Assembly (NCBI RefSeq): GCF_023555055.1
Contig: NZ_JAMJPL010000001.1
Location: forward strand, 434,001 to 498,000
Reading direction: 5' to 3'
Source of the DNA: Marinobacter sp. ATCH36
GTDB lineage: Bacteria > Pseudomonadota > Gammaproteobacteria > Pseudomonadales > Oleiphilaceae
DNA length: 64,000 bases
Shown: positions 2,222 to 62,703 of the stretch, piece by piece
Layout: each line of letters starts with the position of its first letter
How positions within the stretch are numbered: the stretch's first letter is position 1
The notes under the pieces: generated by a model
Databases searched by the model: none
What the model saw: the letters and a program-made list of their open reading frames with translations, nothing else
Told to the model about the DNA's origin: nothing
Position numbers and translations under genes: made by a program

Positions 2222-3496
2222 GTGACGAACAAAGAATTGCAGGCACTCAAAGAACGTTATGTCGCGGCCGGTGCTGCCAGCCCCAACGAGCAGTTTGCCG
2301 ACCATGCGACCAATGCCGAACTCTGGGATGCGGATGGCAAGCGTATGATCGACTTCGCCGGCGGCATTGGTGTATTGAATATCGGCCATCGTCACCCTAA
2401 AGTGGTCGAGGCAGTGAAAGCGCAGCTGGATAAGCTGATGCACACCTGCCAGACCGTCATGCCCTATGAGGGCTATGTGAAGCTGGCACAGAAGCTTAGT
2501 GAGGTCGTTCCCGTCAAGGGCAACGCCAAGGTCATGCTTGCCAACTCCGGCGCAGAGGCACTGGAAAATGCCATGAAGATTGCCCGGGCGGCAACCGGCA
2601 AAACCAACGTTATCTGCTTTGACGGCGGTTATCACGGCCGTACATTCTACACCATGGCCATGAACGGTAAGGCTGCACCCTACCAGACCGATTTCGGGCC
2701 CATGCCGGGCACCGTATTCCGCGCACCCTATCCCGTACCTTATCACGGTGTCAGTGAAGATGAAGCGCTTCGTGGTCTGAAGATGGCCATGAAAGCAGAC
2801 TCTCCGGCTCAGGATACCGCCGCTATTGTGATCGAGCCGGTACTGGGTGAGGGCGGTTTTTACGCGGCACCAGCCAGCTTCCTGAAAGAGATTCGCAAGA
2901 TCTGCGATGAAAATGGCATCCTGATGATTGCGGACGAAGTCCAGAGCGGCTTCGGGCGGACAGGCAAGATGTTTGCCATTGAACACAGTGGCGTTGAGCC
3001 GGATATCATGACCATGGCCAAAAGCATGGCTGATGGTATGCCCATTTCCGCCATTGTTGGCACCGACAAGGTGATGGACTCTTCCGGCCCGAATTCCCTG
3101 GGTGGCACCTATACCGGTAGCCCCACCGCCTGTGCAGCAGCACTGGCAGTATTTGATGTGTTCAAGGAAGAGGACATTCTGGGCAAGAGCCAGCGCCTGG
3201 GTGACAAGCTGCGCAAGCGTTTTGACCAGTGGCAGGAGCAGTTCCCCCATGTGGATAACGTGCGTAACCTGGGGCCCATGGCCGCTATTGAGCTGGTCAC
3301 AGACAAGACCAGCAAGGAGCCAAGGGCAGACTTTGCCGCGGCCGTGACCAAAAAAGCCAAGGAAAACGGCTTGATCCTGCTCAGTTGTGGCATGTATGGC
3401 AATACTATCCGCTTCCTGATGCCGGTCACCATTGAGGACGACGTTCTCGAGGAAGGTCTGGGTATTGTGGAACAGGCCCTGAAAGAGGTTGGCTGA
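2222..3496 (+). CDS. gabT: 4-aminobutyrate--2-oxoglutarate aminotransferase
   Basis: Class III PLP-dependent aminotransferase, 424 aa, the usual GabT length. It should transfer the amino group of GABA (or a related omega-amino acid) to 2-oxoglutarate, giving succinate semialdehyde and glutamate in the cytoplasm. Visible motifs are the phosphate-binding NSGAEA (109-114), the cofactor-binding DEVQSGFGRTG (about 238-248) and the PLP lysine in TMAKSMADG (K267). The GTG at 2222 is chosen because GAGGAGAG lies just upstream and the protein then begins VTNKELQALKERYV, normal for GabT; the frame is open further upstream without a better site. The usual partner gabD is not adjacent. A strong terminator follows. 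Omega-amino acid specificity could be broader. Confidence 0.93.
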   Translation: MTNKELQALKERYVAAGAASPNEQFADHATNAELWDADGKRMIDFAGGIGVLNIGHRHPKVVEAVKAQLDKLMHTCQTVMPYEGYVKLAQKLSEVVPVKGNAKVMLANSGAEALENAMKIARAATGKTNVICFDGGYHGRTFYTMAMNGKAAPYQTDFGPMPGTVFRAPYPVPYHGVSEDEALRGLKMAMKADSPAQDTAAIVIEPVLGEGGFYAAPASFLKEIRKICDENGILMIADEVQSGFGRTGKMFAIEHSGVEPDIMTMAKSMADGMPISAIVGTDKVMDSSGPNSLGGTYTGSPTACAAALAVFDVFKEEDILGKSQRLGDKLRKRFDQWQEQFPHVDNVRNLGPMAAIELVTDKTSKEPRADFAAAVTKKAKENGLILLSCGMYGNTIRFLMPVTIEDDVLEEGLGIVEQALKEVG

Positions 3497-3544
3497 ATGA
3501 CCTACACGCAGGGCGTTTGATCGTCCTGCTACTGCCTTCCTAAG

Positions 3545-3579
3545 CGCTGGTCAGTTCCTTGCTGACCAGCGTTTTTTTT
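3545..3579 (+). terminator. Rho-independent terminator after gabT
   Basis: Ten-base stem CGCTGGTCAG (3545-3554) and CTGACCAGCG (3562-3571), 7-base loop, then eight T residues. It lies 49 bases after the gabT stop and before the convergent ParA-like gene. Confidence 0.93.
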
Positions 3580-3605
3580 GGGTTAGAAAAACTCCTTGCC
3601 ACTCG

Positions 3606-4346
3606 CTAGAGCAGCTTGCGGATTTCCTTCCATAACCGGCGATAGGCATCCGCAGCGGCGGACGACCGATCCATCAACTCGACAGGCTGGCCACTTTCGC
3701 CCATTTTCTCCACAACACTGGCATTGGGGATGATGGCATTCAGCCCCCCTTCAAGATGCTCTTTCCGGTTGATTACCATCTCCCGATGGAGGTTTTTGCG
3801 CCGGTCCACCATCGAGAAGAACGGATGCAGGCGGCCGGGTTTGAGCTTCTTGTCCCTGGCGAAGTCCTGAAGCTGGTGCCAGCTGTTAAGTGCAAGCCAG
3901 GTGGGTACCACCGGCACAAATACGCCGTCTGCCGTTTTCAGCACCTGCTCCGATAAGCGCGACATTGACGGTGGACAGTCCAGCACCACCAGGCTGGTTT
4001 CCTCTGAAAGCGGCGCCAGCCAGTTCTTGAGCGTATTGTTGCTGTCGTCCTTATCCAGTCGCACATCAAGGTTGCGAAAGCTATTGTGGGCAGGAACGAA
4101 GTCCAGGTTGGGGTAGGCACTGTCGCGAATAAACTTGCCTATCGGAGTTTTGCCGTCCATCAGCGCGGCCAGTTTCCGGCCTTTGATCTCGTCGGTACCG
4201 GCCAGATACCAGCTTGCTGCCCCCTGGGGGTCCAGGTCCCATAACAGTGTGGAGATACCGGCCTGACTGGCCAGATAGGCGATGTTCACAGCCGCTGCGG
4301 TTTTACCCACACCGCCTTTGAGACTGTAGAACGCAATAATCTTCAT
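3606..4346 (-). CDS. Orphan ParA-family ATPase
   Basis: ParA/MinD-superfamily P-loop ATPase of 246 aa. The deviant Walker A motif KGGVGKTA is at residues 10-17 and the DPQG motif of ParA proteins is present (LLWDLDPQGAAS). The start at 4346 is supported by AGGAGG 4 bases upstream; an open frame extends to 4415 but lacks a ribosome site. No parB-like gene is next to it, and it is not the chromosomal Soj, which lies at 33.7 kb. Orphan ParA proteins position cargo such as chemoreceptor clusters, flagella or carboxysomes; which cargo applies here cannot be read from the neighbours. It is convergent with gabT. Confidence 0.88.
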   Translation of the reverse strand: MKIIAFYSLKGGVGKTAAAVNIAYLASQAGISTLLWDLDPQGAASWYLAGTDEIKGRKLAALMDGKTPIGKFIRDSAYPNLDFVPAHNSFRNLDVRLDKDDSNNTLKNWLAPLSEETSLVVLDCPPSMSRLSEQVLKTADGVFVPVVPTWLALNSWHQLQDFARDKKLKPGRLHPFFSMVDRRKNLHREMVINRKEHLEGGLNAIIPNASVVEKMGESGQPVELMDRSSAAADAYRRLWKEIRKLL

Positions 4347-4576
4347 GCTCCCTCCTGAAGCCTGGCGGAAAAATGGCTTGTAGCTTAACCGATTCCACTT
4401 ATGCGAGTGTTGCAATTACATGACACCGACACACGAACTACCATATACCGGATTTCACTCCCCGACCATTGCGTTCTGCCTACGATAAACGGTGGTTTCA
4501 TCGTATACTGCGTGGAGATTTTTTCGGTATGCTGGGTTTCTGACAGCATCACTTTCCCGAACCATCAGGCTGATTT

Positions 4577-5347
4577 ATGACCCCCCAGGAAATCCGACCA
4601 AGACCGTCCCATAAACCCAGGCCCTGGGTAGACCTTCTTGTCAGCATCATCATTCCCTCAGTTATTCTTATGAAACTGAGCGGTGATGAGTACCTGGGCA
4701 GTGTGATGGCCCTGGTAATCGGTCTCGCTTTCCCTCTGGGCTGGGGCCTGTTCGAGCTGGTACGGTACCGTAAATACAATTTTATCGCCGTGCTGGGCGT
4801 CATCAGTGTCGGCCTTACCGGTGGTATCGGCCTGATGGAGCTGGATGCCGGCTGGTTGGCAATCAAAGAAGCCGCCGTTCCCGCAGTGATTGGTATCGCG
4901 GTACTGATCTCGACCCGTACCAGGTACCCGCTGGTTAAAACCCTGCTGTACAACCCGACGGTACTGGATGTGGAAAAAATCCAGGCGGTTCTGAAGGAAA
5001 GGGGGAGCGAGGCAGAGTTCGAATCCCGGCTGCTGAAGGCAAGCTACTTCTTCAGTCTGACCTTCCTGTTCTCATCGATTATGAACTTCGTTCTGGCCAA
5101 ATGGATTGTCACCAGTGCTTCCGGCACGCAAGCCTTCAACGAAGAGCTGGGACGAATGACACTGGTCAGTTACCCGATGATTGCCATTCCATCGATGATC
5201 ATGATGATCGCCATTTTCTATTATCTGTGGCGCTCCATTCGCCGGCTCACTGGTTACACTCTGGAGGAGGTCATGGCGCCCCACCTGGCGGCAAAGCATG
5301 AGAATAGTGAATCATCGGATTCGGGGTCCAGTCGGCAAGACCCATAA
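4577..5347 (+). CDS. VC0807-like multi-pass membrane protein
   Basis: Inner-membrane protein of 256 aa with about six hydrophobic segments (for example LVSIIIPSVILM, GSVMALVIGLAFPL, FIAVLGVISVGLTGGIGL, PMIAIPSMIMMIAIFYYL). The overall layout and the YPLVKTLLYNP stretch resemble the VC0807 family of uncharacterised bacterial membrane proteins. No transport or catalytic motif is visible, so function is unknown. The ATG at 4577 gives a short polar N-terminus before the first helix. The gene is divergent from the orphan ParA gene with about 230 bp between them, and ends at a bidirectional terminator shared with gyrB. Confidence 0.75.
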   Translation: MTPQEIRPRPSHKPRPWVDLLVSIIIPSVILMKLSGDEYLGSVMALVIGLAFPLGWGLFELVRYRKYNFIAVLGVISVGLTGGIGLMELDAGWLAIKEAAVPAVIGIAVLISTRTRYPLVKTLLYNPTVLDVEKIQAVLKERGSEAEFESRLLKASYFFSLTFLFSSIMNFVLAKWIVTSASGTQAFNEELGRMTLVSYPMIAIPSMIMMIAIFYYLWRSIRRLTGYTLEEVMAPHLAAKHENSESSDSGSSRQDP

Positions 5348-5384
5348 CAAACAGAATTTTGTCATCAGGTTATTGATTTTAAAT

Positions 5385-5414
5385 AAAAAAGGCGACCAAA
5401 TGGTCGCCTTTTTT
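5385..5414. terminator. Bidirectional terminator between convergent genes
   Basis: Stem GGCGACCA (5391-5398) and TGGTCGCC (5401-5408) flanked by six A residues on the left and six T residues on the right. It can end transcription of the membrane-protein gene on the plus strand and of gyrB on the minus strand. Confidence 0.92.
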
Positions 5415-5464
5415 GTGCCCCTGGCACTCTCTAGGAGCTGTCCTGATACCGTCACACCATAGTG

Positions 5465-9090
<3,626 letters not shown>

Positions 9091-59164: not shown

Positions 59165-59290
59165 GCAAAATGTCGATTTAATTTACAATTTTGCAATGGG
59201 CGTTCCAGGAGGGCACGCCCTAAGCTCCCAAAAATAGATTAATAATTAACCAAAGGCTTGAAAGTTGCTTGATTAAGCACTCTTGAAACG

Positions 59291-59344
59291 CTCGCTTCCG
59301 CAGTGCGGGCTATCCGGGACTAGGTCCCGATGCGGAGGCCCGAG
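59291..59344 (+). promoter_or_regulatory. Leader hairpin that buries a ribosome-binding site
   Basis: CTCGCTTCCGCA (59291-59302) can pair with TGCGGAGGCCCGAG (59331-59344) through 12 pairs with a two-base bulge; an inner perfect hairpin GGGACTAGGTCCC (59316-59328) sits inside. The right arm contains GGAGG, the Shine-Dalgarno of the CHASE2 gene, and reaches its GTG start, so the fold would block translation. Confidence 0.65.
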
Positions 59345-60810
59345 TGCCAATTAGCAACAAGCTACTGTCATTGCTGAAAATATTGTGGCGCCATTGGCTG
59401 GTGCTGCTGGTTGGTTATGTGCTGGTGTTAGCTGATCCATTCGGTATTGGTTCCAGCACCAGCAAGGCCATCACTAATGCCTTCGACCGGATGGTATCCC
59501 CCTTCTACACTCGTGATCTGGCACGTGGGCAGGGGTTGGATTCCGCCGACCTCGTGGACGTCATACTCATTGACGACAGATCCATTCGCGAACTTTCTCG
59601 CGAAGGCGTCGGCTATTTGAGAGCGAACGATTGGCCGCTCGCCTATAGCGATCATTTGATGTTGATCGATGCGCTCCGGCGACGGGGATATGGAACGATC
59701 ATCTTCGACGTTACCTTTTACCGTAAGCGCAGTCTTGATGGCAGCTTTAATGACCTGGTTACCCGACTGGATTATTTTCGCGAGCATGCCGGGCTGGAAG
59801 TCATTCTGAGTGCCGGATCAGACCCGGAGGACCTGGAGGATTCAATACAGCCACTTGTAAATGCGGTCTCGGATCTGGGGCTGACGGGCTGGTCTGGCTA
59901 CGGCGATGGTTACCCTTTGAACCATGTATTCCCGGATGGTCGCCAGGAACCGAGCCTGGCGTTTGCCGGGTATCAGGCCTTCTGTCGGCAAGCCGGCCCA
60001 ATGGCTTGTGAAGACCTGTCCAGAGCCGAGGAGGCCTGGCTCGTACCGGAACCTTCTGGTATGCATCTGAATTGGGGAATGCCCTCCAAACATCAGTCAG
60101 ATTCCATAGGCTGCATGCCACGCACATTGGATGAGACGTGGTATCCAGCGTGGGTTGAGTTGCTGGTCGTTATCAAGAGGAACCTGGTTGGCCCTGATAT
60201 CATCGATGAAAATACACGCAACGTCTGCCCGCCGCTACCAACGGCCACTTTGCAGGACGTTCTCTTCAGTGGGTCAGAGTGCAAACCACTTTTCGATAGT
60301 GACGGTCCCAATGCGTGCGACACCCCCAGAATTGCCATGGTGGGTGTCTCCCTGCCGTCGGCCCGGGATCTGTTTGACCCGCCCACACCCGGCCGCCTGC
60401 CTGGCGTTTATCTCCATGCCGAGGCTCTGCGAAACCTTCTTCATTTCCAGGCGGATTATTTCAAGCCCCTGGGATTGGAACTGAATCTCGGCTTTAACGG
60501 ACCGCCCCAATGGTCATTGCCTGTTGACGTGTTTTTGGTTTGGCCCCTTTTGCTGCTTGCAGCTGTTTGGCTGGCGCGGCGCGTTCTGGAGTGGCGATGG
60601 AAAGAAGAGAACACTTGGGAGATTCCGGAAATTTTACTGGAACTGGGTGAAACGGTGTTGGTGCTGATTGCTCTGGTGTTGCTTTACCAGTTGGCAATCG
60701 TTTTCCACCGCACCCCGGGAGGATTGGCGGATCTGATTGGATTGATACCGCTGTTACTGATTGTCGTTCGTCGCGAACGGAAGGAGATAGAACATGAGAG
60801 GCTACGTTAG
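59344..60810 (+). CDS. CHASE2-domain membrane sensor without output domain
   Basis: Membrane protein of 488 aa. One N-terminal helix (HWLVLLVGYVLVLAD) is followed by a roughly 350-residue periplasmic CHASE2-type sensor (VDVILIDDRSIRELSREG; ALRRRGYGTIIFDVTFY) and three C-terminal helices (about 395-475). After them only about 10 basic residues remain, with no kinase, cyclase or GGDEF domain. It is therefore a stand-alone sensor or structural membrane protein. GTG 59344 has GGAGG 5 bases upstream. It overlaps the next gene by 17 bases and begins a three-gene operon ending in an M48 metalloprotease. Confidence 0.85.
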   Translation: MPISNKLLSLLKILWRHWLVLLVGYVLVLADPFGIGSSTSKAITNAFDRMVSPFYTRDLARGQGLDSADLVDVILIDDRSIRELSREGVGYLRANDWPLAYSDHLMLIDALRRRGYGTIIFDVTFYRKRSLDGSFNDLVTRLDYFREHAGLEVILSAGSDPEDLEDSIQPLVNAVSDLGLTGWSGYGDGYPLNHVFPDGRQEPSLAFAGYQAFCRQAGPMACEDLSRAEEAWLVPEPSGMHLNWGMPSKHQSDSIGCMPRTLDETWYPAWVELLVVIKRNLVGPDIIDENTRNVCPPLPTATLQDVLFSGSECKPLFDSDGPNACDTPRIAMVGVSLPSARDLFDPPTPGRLPGVYLHAEALRNLLHFQADYFKPLGLELNLGFNGPPQWSLPVDVFLVWPLLLLAAVWLARRVLEWRWKEENTWEIPEILLELGETVLVLIALVLLYQLAIVFHRTPGGLADLIGLIPLLLIVVRRERKEIEHERLR

Positions 60811-61150
60811 CTTGTTTGCCCTGCTGCTAGCATCGAGTAACCCGCTGCTCGCTGAGTCCCTGAAAATTGAGAGATTTCACGATCAGAAACATGCTTTTGT
60901 CACTACACCCGATGGTTCTACGGTGTCGGTAGGTGAACTGGAGCTGGTATTTCCTCTGGATATAACCGGAATGGAACGCGGTCAATACGTGTTCAACGGT
61001 CCGGAAGGAGAGGGTTACCGGGTTTATGTGCCAGAAGTTGTGATCACCGGCTCCACAGAGCCTGTTGTCGTTTGTGACCAATCCCAGGTTGTCTTTGCCG
61101 ACGACTACCGGATTGCCAGCGCACGCGGCGTTGAAGGGGAGTGTCAGTGA
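60794..61150 (+). CDS. Small exported protein in the CHASE2/M48 operon
   Basis: Predicted periplasmic protein of 118 aa; the signal peptide (SLFALLLASSNPLLAES) is followed by a beta-rich domain of about 95 residues. Two cysteines (VVCDQ and GECQ) could form a disulfide. No family was recognised. It overlaps the CHASE2 gene by 17 bases at its start and its stop shares one base with the next start (TGATG at 61148-61152). Such tight coupling argues that the three products act together. Confidence 0.75.
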   Translation: MRGYVSLFALLLASSNPLLAESLKIERFHDQKHAFVTTPDGSTVSVGELELVFPLDITGMERGQYVFNGPEGEGYRVYVPEVVITGSTEPVVVCDQSQVVFADDYRIASARGVEGECQ

Positions 61151-62631
61151 TGAGACGCTATCAGACTGTGGGGTTGGTTTTTTCTCTATGCTTGTTGCTT
61201 GCAGGCTGCAGCACCTCTCCTTACGAATCCGAGGAGTGGTCTGAAGATGGCGAATTGCGCCAGAAGCACCTGGATGAACTCGTCTCCAGAGCGGCCCTGC
61301 ACAACGGAAGTGGCCTCGACCCAATGGCCGATGCAGTATTGTTACGAAGTGACAGTGTTGCCCCCCTGGCGGCCGCTTCCGTTACGGCCGAACTTCAGGC
61401 TATCGCCGAAGAACTGTCACAGAGTTGGGCGGGAGAACCCTGCCGCTGCCAAGTCCGGATCGGGCCGAGTTACAGCTTCGGTGGATTCACTTATCCCCAT
61501 GGCACCATCGTAATTCAGGCCGGTACTCTGGAGTATTTGGACACCCGCGACGAAGTGGCGGCTTTGCTCGCCCATGAGCTTTCGCACCTCTGGCTGGACC
61601 ACCACAGCAAAAATGAAATGCAATCCGCCGCCAAGGGCCTGACCGACCTGGTCCAGGCTGTTTCCCTTTTCAGCAACGATGAAGATGCCAGGGAGACCAC
61701 TATGCGCTTGGGGGGCTCCACAGATGCCCTGATAGCGGCGGCCGGCTTCACACAGTGGAATCGGCAACAGGAAACAGAAGCCGATCTGCTGGCGGCAAAA
61801 ATACTGGAAAAGTCCCGTTACAGCCCCATGGCAATGATTGCTTTACTGACCAAACTCAGGAAAGGGAAAGAGGCAATCCCGGTTGCCGGCTCTGCCTATG
61901 AGGAAATGGGTGAGGCGATGGCCAAGAAGATAAAGAAAGAGGAGGTCGAGATCAGCGATAACCAGATTCAGAGATGGCTGACAACGGTATCCGACGATAT
62001 GGATGGCAGAGAGTATCTGTCTTCCGAGGAACGTCGTCAGATTGCGCGGTCTGTGATCTACGGACTTGAACCGGCCACATTGGCCCGCTCTTTCACGTCA
62101 CTGGGTATTAATCCGGAAGTGCTGAAGCCCGTGACCTCCCTCAGAACCATTCACGAGTTGGAGCCAGCCAGTGCAGCGTATTTTCAGCTTGTCGATCGGT
62201 CGATGGTAAGCGAGCCGGACAACCTCCATCTGCAACTGATCAAATTCCGTGGGTTGGTTGATCTTGGCGACCATCAGCAAGCGGCGAAGATGGCAGCTGC
62301 CTTTATTGGAAGGCCAGACGCGACATTCAGTGCACTGAGTGAAGCAACACGGTATCTGGATCAGCACGTGGTGATGGATGAAGAGCAACGTAAGTCACTG
62401 ATGCGAACAGCCGTGATCAAATTAGTGGAACTGGATTTGCCAGATGCCTACGCGGCTGATCAGTATTATCTGTCCAAGCGATATCAGGTGCCACTGCACG
62501 ACGCACTCAATGAAAAATTGTGTGTTGCCCGCTCCGGTAAGGTTAGTGTTCGGGAGCGATGCAAGTTGGCGAAGCAGGCGCTGGAACGCAATATCAGTTT
62601 TTATCAGACACTGGCGCAGGCAGGATTGTAG
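61150..62631 (+). CDS. M48-family metalloprotease lipoprotein
   Basis: Lipoprotein of 493 aa with lipobox LLAGC (cysteine 20). The zinc motif HELSH (142-146) and the glutamate of ETEADLLAAKIL (about 208-210) mark an M48 (BepA/LoiP-like) metallopeptidase. The second half (about 290-493) is helical and may be a TPR-like region that binds partners. M48 lipoproteins act in outer-membrane protein and lipopolysaccharide-transport quality control. The ATG at 61150 is preceded by GGGGAG. It is the last gene of the CHASE2 operon. Confidence 0.88.
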   Translation: MRRYQTVGLVFSLCLLLAGCSTSPYESEEWSEDGELRQKHLDELVSRAALHNGSGLDPMADAVLLRSDSVAPLAAASVTAELQAIAEELSQSWAGEPCRCQVRIGPSYSFGGFTYPHGTIVIQAGTLEYLDTRDEVAALLAHELSHLWLDHHSKNEMQSAAKGLTDLVQAVSLFSNDEDARETTMRLGGSTDALIAAAGFTQWNRQQETEADLLAAKILEKSRYSPMAMIALLTKLRKGKEAIPVAGSAYEEMGEAMAKKIKKEEVEISDNQIQRWLTTVSDDMDGREYLSSEERRQIARSVIYGLEPATLARSFTSLGINPEVLKPVTSLRTIHELEPASAAYFQLVDRSMVSEPDNLHLQLIKFRGLVDLGDHQQAAKMAAAFIGRPDATFSALSEATRYLDQHVVMDEEQRKSLMRTAVIKLVELDLPDAYAADQYYLSKRYQVPLHDALNEKLCVARSGKVSVRERCKLAKQALERNISFYQTLAQAGL

Positions 62632-62703
62632 AAAGCTACAGTAGGCGGAATCGGGTTCCTTCGCTACCCTAGGGGCTTTACGGCCTCTTGACTTATTTTG
62701 TCT

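Follow-up and report, generated by a model that had tools for sequence, protein, structure and literature searches.

Gene content of the locus

We analysed a stretch of 64,000 nucleotides (nt) of the Marinobacter sp. ATCH36 genome (contig NZ_JAMJPL010000001.1, positions 434,001 to 498,000 of the forward strand; hereafter the window), in which three genes are packed end to end on one strand (+) at positions 59344-62631. They encode a membrane protein with a CHASE2 sensor domain but no recognisable output domain (orphan CHASE2), a small exported protein and a zinc metalloprotease lipoprotein of the M48 family, and this trio recurs in the same order across three classes of Proteobacteria. The window's own genome is labelled G000 here, and the window lies on its contig C11. 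The features of the locus are:

59344..60810, + strand: orphan CHASE2 membrane protein, 488 amino acids (aa), GTG start, PF05226
60794..61150, + strand: small exported protein, 118 aa, signal-peptide-like N terminus, predicted SH3-like barrel
61150..62631, + strand: M48 zinc metalloprotease lipoprotein, 493 aa, ATG at 61150, PF01435
59334..59338, + strand: Shine-Dalgarno-like GGAGG ahead of the GTG at 59344, from the sequence
62671..62688, + strand: weak terminator-like stem-loop between the M48 gene and the LysR gene, from a stem-loop scan

The CHASE2 gene overlaps the small gene by 17 base pairs (bp) and the small gene overlaps the M48 gene by 1 bp, and the coordinates thus bear out the three overlapping genes of the initial annotation. 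The start position given there, 59289, lies near the opening of the open frame of CHASE2 and is out of frame with the start codon, the first in this frame being the GTG at 59344. The trio is flanked upstream by nrdA and nrdB and downstream by the LysR gene, and the stem-loop ahead of the latter is a weak call, as the stretch contained 4 such sites versus a mean of 3.8 in shuffled sequences. The window's CHASE2 gene ends at least ~20 codons earlier than its counterparts at five other Marinobacter loci (L033, L034, L035, L037 and L046), with a TAG breaking the homologous tail, and the overlap with the small gene is 74–89 bp in those five versus 17 bp in the window.

Conservation of the gene order

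The order CHASE2, small exported gene, M48 gene was found in 19/19 assessable orphan-type CHASE2 loci, comprising 6 Marinobacter, 10 other genomes and 3 named replicons (6 + 9 + 1 + 3), and for 15 of these loci (2 + 9 + 1 + 3) CHASE2 sequence was the sole route of discovery. The M48 protein had first led to four of the six Marinobacter loci, which were then used to build the first CHASE2 profile (A1) and are therefore not independent, while G064 and G093 were found via the CHASE2 profile alone. Within the genus, profile A1 matched 6 of 124 genomes, with the trio in order in all six. Outside the genus, a profile built from the six Marinobacter proteins (A4) matched 6 genomes of 390 in the order sample and 7 of 369 in the class sample; two of the 13 (G311 and G579) were located at contig edges, could not be assessed and were dropped. 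At the remaining 11 loci (nine orphan-type and two canonical CHASE2, G790 and G529) CHASE2 was always followed by a small exported gene and an M48 gene, the latter confirmed by Pfam in all 11. A further profile (A6) gave strong matches in three of 319 genomes of the phylum sample (G000, G327 and G1098, all <1e-94, the next at 9e-10), with G1098 also carrying the trio, and its matches in the class sample (6/369 genomes at 1e-12) had all been found with earlier profiles. Finally, tblastn searches with four CHASE2 proteins against 72,556 plasmid and secondary-replicon records returned three records, from Photobacterium sp. DA100, Caballeronia sp. M1242 and Novosphingobium sp. KACC 22771, and all three contain the trio, which in Caballeronia is annotated as a CHASE2 domain-containing protein, a hypothetical protein and an M48 family metalloprotease. 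A pattern scan of genome contigs gave four loci, all from Marinobacter, the patterns being too specific.

The gaps between neighbouring genes ranged from -113 to +99 bp across 18 measured loci (in Novosphingobium, the M48 gene overlaps the small gene by 4 bp). The weakest member, G547, was left out of the gap and distance tables; its CHASE2 protein scores 18.5 bits versus the Pfam cut-off of 26.3, and 6e-28 with the trio profile.

As controls we used 40 long canonical CHASE2 genes (frames of 582–985 aa) with strong PF05226 matches among the class-sample matches listed, the output domain being checked with Pfam for G518 only. One control (L158) had no sequence after the CHASE2 gene and was dropped, and the other 39 had 2.7–5.8 kilobases (kb) behind the gene. 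An M48 gene was detected in this region in 0/19 of the first set and 3/20 of the second (3/39), whereas in the trios it starts within a few hundred bases. Two of the three positives belong to one genus (G518 and G665), and in the third the M48 frame lies several genes away and runs off the end of the sequence available. An M48 profile trained without trio sequences found all 17 tested trio or cyclase-type loci and left the control matches unchanged. Chance neighbourhood was thus ruled out, with M48 present in all orphan-type but few control loci. The association is tight only from CHASE2 to M48, since most of the 11 plasmid records found with an M48 query had no CHASE2 match, and M48 genes therefore often occur without CHASE2. 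No trio-type CHASE2 gene was found near other M48 genes at 30 loci with flanks of up to 1.5 kb, using a profile which may miss canonical CHASE2.

Sequence identity between the Marinobacter and distant sets is low for all three proteins (CHASE2 16–24%, small protein 13–28%, M48 13–23%). Pairwise distances of CHASE2 and M48 were correlated over 15 loci (r = 0.98) and over the ten divergent loci (r = 0.85, with 0/2000 permutations as high), and in the latter set the CHASE2-small and small-M48 correlations were 0.71 and 0.68, respectively (at most 1/2000 permutations as high). Homologues of the three genes are kept together in Alpha-, Beta- and Gammaproteobacteria rather than rarely co-occurring, and the orphan CHASE2 gene coupled to a protease gene, as the initial annotation had it, is a real and conserved arrangement. 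That the three genes belong together as a functional unit is strongly supported by this conservation. The earlier interpretation of the three as an envelope-stress or proteolysis-control device is partly supported, envelope stress being a possible role.

The surroundings of the trio vary. A role as part of the ribonucleotide-reductase neighbourhood was ruled out, as the 16 kb of G008 contain no nrd match, and, judged by eye only, different genes surround the trio in G093 and at the distant loci. In M. azerbaijanicus (L037) ~5 kb separates nrdB from the trio (2975-7765), with genes that by eye are Mut7-C-like, beta-barrel-like, subtilase-like protease, sigma-factor-like and anti-sigma-like, and the M. 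salexigens trio (L034) has, also by eye, an integrase-like frame at 140-691, near the contig end. Plasmid-borne spread of the Marinobacter version was rejected, since the plasmid records held only distant homologues (<60% identity), on large replicons. A known defence system was likewise rejected, with 0 PADLOC families matching any of the three window proteins up to E 0.01.

The orphan CHASE2 protein

The CHASE2 protein of the window belongs to the CHASE2 domain family (PF05226, E 2e-13, 50.9 bits versus a cut-off of 26.3), and no second Pfam family was found in it up to E 1. A simple hydropathy scan placed hydrophobic segments at residues ~10–28 at the N terminus and at ~392–410, ~437–455 and ~459–477 at the C terminus, with the CHASE2 domain in between predicted to be periplasmic and a tail of 11 residues after the last segment; other trio members have two to five segments in the same scan. 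Neither the Pfam search nor the tail length gave any kinase, cyclase or other cytoplasmic output, and the protein is hence not a signalling receptor in the usual sense. Within what Pfam and length can show, the earlier statement that it lacks a signalling output is correct. None of the 13 orphan-type proteins that were scanned and passed the CHASE2 cut-off matched another Pfam family above its cut-off.

Most of the orphan-type proteins share cysteines that the canonical CHASE2 proteins compared lack. In a single MAFFT alignment, on which these counts rest, the columns of window Cys 214, 222, 257 and 295 hold a cysteine in 14, 14, 13 and 13 of 15 trio proteins, respectively, and in 0/20 canonical ones, and window residues 201–220 have no counterpart in the 20 canonical proteins. 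No sequence relative was found in the PDB up to E 1. The same genome has one other CHASE2 match only (L031, G000:C19:62655-66509). Judged by eye, this long protein is PAS- and kinase-like in sequence, an apparent histidine kinase, and its gene follows a FecR-like gene, which is the canonical arrangement. In G435 a second CHASE2-looking membrane protein, recognised by eye, is encoded convergently toward the trio (L063 1285-3279).

The small exported protein

The 118 aa protein has a signal-peptide-like N terminus by eye and no match in Pfam or NCBIfam, nor did any orphan-type small protein scanned match a Pfam family above cut-off. All 17 small proteins tested have a C-terminal tail that contains two cysteines, the second closely preceded by a glycine (C94...G...C117 in the window). 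When 14 small proteins were aligned, no columns but these were invariant (C96, G114 and C119 in the numbering of the first row). The G547 and Novosphingobium proteins, which are outside the 17, have two cysteines that by eye are spaced differently, with a shorter loop in the divergent G547 protein and a longer one in Novosphingobium.

An AlphaFold2 model from five sequences had a mean predicted local distance difference test (pLDDT) score of 69.6, with block means of 84–90 over residues 21–80, and shows a small mostly-beta domain with the tail unplaced. The top Foldseek match was 3h41, an NlpC/P60 protein which we take to carry SH3b domains (E 0.08, probability 0.99; no match below E 0.001), and the lower matches include many Hfq, Tudor and SH3 barrels, but also unrelated chains such as myosin, integrase and FGF. 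Comparison with hhalign of the orphan-type small proteins and their Pfam-SH3 counterparts from the cyclase-type operons described below gave 90.7%, over an aligned stretch that takes in the signal peptide. The small protein is thus likely to be an SH3-like barrel, going by model and profile comparison. Of the earlier description as a small exported protein of unknown fold, the exported-looking N terminus and the lack of a family match stand, while the fold is no longer without a candidate, as both comparisons point, if inconclusively, to this barrel.

The M48 protease

The M48 protein of the window matches PF01435 (E 4e-17, 63.2 bits versus a cut-off of 20.3) and has the catalytic residues of the family, with HELSH at 142–146 (H142, E143 and H146) and a third ligand, E208, in ETEAD, as well as a lipobox (LAGC-ST); the family match, motif and LAGC were all seen, as expected from its initial annotation as an M48 lipoprotein with HELSH and lipobox. 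Across the trios, HExxH and the third ligand are intact in 15/15 proteins, and the lipobox is present in 14/15, the exception being G861. The residue after the lipid cysteine governs the sorting of lipoproteins to the outer membrane, in which the M48 lipoprotein is probably anchored. A C-terminal cysteine pair (C-x(9-13)-C, Cys 458 and 471 in the window) was found in 15/17 trio proteins and in 0/10 other M48 proteins of 438–658 aa.

In profile searches, the protease domain matched 3c37 and BepA, its nearest solved relatives, and the C-terminal part matched tetratricopeptide repeat (TPR) proteins. The protein nevertheless scores far below the NCBIfam models of BepA (NF052400, an equivalog model; 31.2 bits versus a cut-off of 570) and LoiP (NF052399; 41.2 versus 365), and the genome has four further M48 genes, and a housekeeping BepA under another name was ruled out on these grounds. 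Two reports describe the BepA active site as occluded by a plug whose His246 is the fourth zinc ligand, H246 mutants as behaving like deregulated forms, and BamA and LptD as being degraded by BepA (PMC7950410, PMC8423444). The plug motif HPx4R, as given in PMC7950410, is absent from the window protein, which has Y289...R295 instead. At the position of the BepA His-switch, all 6 Marinobacter trio proteins have a tyrosine and all 9 other aligned trio proteins a histidine, followed by a proline in 2 of the 9, while the arginine six residues on is kept in 15/15. Tyrosine is known as a zinc ligand in other metalloproteases. With 3c37 and BepA as nearest solved relatives, a role for the trio M48 in outer-membrane quality control is plausible.

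A second arrangement, with a cyclase domain confirmed in two genomes

A CHASE2 protein, an SH3-type protein and an M48 protease are also encoded in succession in four genomes of three genera (G529, L073; G790, L074; G518, L183; G665, L185), and the same kinds of protein are thus linked in a second way. A cyclase domain was confirmed by Pfam in G518 and G790, and the CHASE2 gene of G529 is split over two frames. The proteins at the SH3 position of G529 and G790, the two scanned, match Pfam SH3 families, and the M48 proteins are short (~275–280 aa). The SH3 proteins of these operons have a common tail, ARRRAS..TAA.RGL, similar to ASARG(V/L) in the small protein of Marinobacter, and in G518, G665 and G529 the gene following M48 encodes a FadL/PorV-like protein by eye.

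Comparison with known systems

LapD has cytoplasmic domains that bind cyclic dimeric guanosine monophosphate, and LapG is a cysteine protease. By analogy, the trio may resemble this pair, in which an inner-membrane receptor uses its periplasmic side to control a periplasmic protease (PMC3032545, PMC3032553, PMC4359373). The trio differs in combining a CHASE2 protein devoid of cytoplasmic domains with a zinc protease, and the comparison is one of gene order. With BepA, YcaL and LoiP the M48 protein shares HExxH, the third glutamate and a signal peptide, with BepA also a TPR-like part, and with LoiP and YcaL the lipoprotein nature; it is set apart by its low scores with the BepA and LoiP models, the C-terminal cysteine pair and the operon with CHASE2, and in Marinobacter by the tyrosine in place of the regulatory His246 of BepA.

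CHASE2 was recognised as a sensory domain two decades ago, and to our knowledge most of its signals are still to be identified. The CHASE2 domain links the trio to the CHASE2 kinases and cyclases, such as those of LysM/FecR-CHASE2-HK operons and the Sinorhizobium CyaD1, CyaD2 and CyaK, whereas no output was found in the trio CHASE2 proteins, which have extra periplasmic cysteines and a protease as constant partner. A Burkholderia CHASE2 kinase is described as having one N-terminal and three C-terminal hydrophobic segments, as in the window protein, and the Burkholderia kinases have a LysM/FecR partner (PMC5192318). For Sinorhizobium CHASE2 cyclases, a response to a protein by way of NsrA, which is an outer-membrane protein, is described (PMC13001267). 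Both cases indicate that CHASE2 proteins can work with envelope partners. No description of a CHASE2-M48 pairing was found in the literature searched, which left out most subscription papers, and as far as these searches go the trio is an undescribed combination of known families.

Proposed mechanism and alternatives

The CHASE2 protein has no recognisable cytoplasmic part, and both of its constant companions are exported, so that an output in the periplasm is the simplest reading. We tentatively favour, at somewhat less than even confidence, a self-contained periplasmic proteolysis module, in which the CHASE2 protein, an inner-membrane protein whose sensor domain would face the periplasm, would hold or gate the M48 lipoprotein, with the small SH3-like protein as adaptor between the two. 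The disulfide-closable tail of the adaptor would most likely serve for docking or locking. Once the CHASE2 domain received a signal, M48 would be released or activated and would cut envelope proteins. This proposal builds on the observed gene order, conservation, co-inheritance, lack of recognisable output domains, intact catalytic residues, lipobox and cysteine signatures, from which we infer the membrane topology, SH3 fold, physical complex, gating, signal and substrates.

Several points weigh against this module. The agreeing distances reflect co-inheritance rather than contact, since co-inheritance by itself would produce them. Nor do all members have the cysteine signatures, with G407 lacking the four CHASE2 cysteines, G327 having two, Caballeronia having other cysteines instead, and G348 and G807 lacking the C-terminal pair of M48. 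The structure model of the CHASE2 protein is too poor for use (mean pLDDT 44), and the adaptor fold leans on a five-sequence model and on Foldseek matches which are all at E 0.001 or above. The module is furthermore sporadic in Marinobacter and hence not essential there, and where CHASE2 bears a cyclase, the protease could equally lie upstream of the sensor instead of being its output.

This last possibility can be extended to the whole family: M48 and the SH3 protein would make or clear a ligand (a processed peptide or envelope fragment) that is sensed by CHASE2, with the cyclase version raising cyclic nucleotide and the orphan version signalling in trans via another membrane partner. The cyclase-type operons of three genera fit this, as do the protein signal answered via an outer-membrane protein by the Sinorhizobium cyclases (PMC13001267) and the second CHASE2 protein of the window's genome, which by eye looks like a histidine kinase with a FecR-like gene next to it. 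We nonetheless regard it as rather unlikely, because the scanned orphan-type proteins carry no output family and no recurrent third signalling gene was seen by the trio in the loci read by eye, without a domain search. It is also unlikely that CHASE2, with no part in sensing, serves only as a membrane scaffold or as the substrate receptor of a BepA-like protease clearing misassembled outer-membrane proteins. The order of protease domain and TPR-like part, the nearest solved relatives and the degradation of BamA and LptD by BepA (PMC7950410, PMC8423444) would suit such a role, but presence in so few genomes of the genus, next to the other M48 genes of the same genome, is unlike a housekeeping factor, and the CHASE2 domain is retained where a plain anchor would suffice. 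The persistence of the C...G...C tail in all small proteins tested, despite the low identity between Marinobacter and distant members, would fit a reading in which M48 trims the small protein, as an exported peptide, and CHASE2 is its receptor or immunity partner. Such peptide maturation appears improbable, however, as the rest of the small protein resembles a folded SH3-like domain in the model, the orphan-type small proteins scanned match no Pfam family above cut-off, and no recurrent export genes were seen by the trio by eye.

Returning to the periplasmic proteolysis module, a broader version is doubtful but worth stating: a CHASE2 branch with periplasmic proteolysis, and not a cytoplasmic signal, as output might form a sensor-adaptor-protease machine found across Alpha-, Beta- and Gammaproteobacteria. 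Each of the three proteins would contribute disulfide-closable elements, chiefly the C-loop-C tail of the adaptor, that lock and unlock M48, possibly reporting the oxidative-folding state of the envelope.

Implications

A conserved CHASE2 branch that lacks a cytoplasmic output and has a dedicated protease offers a way into the periplasmic role of CHASE2 with no kinase or cyclase in between. The module may tie envelope sensing directly to protein cutting. For M48 envelope proteases, the branch further suggests control by a partner in addition to their own active-site plug, the histidine of which is a tyrosine in the Marinobacter branch.

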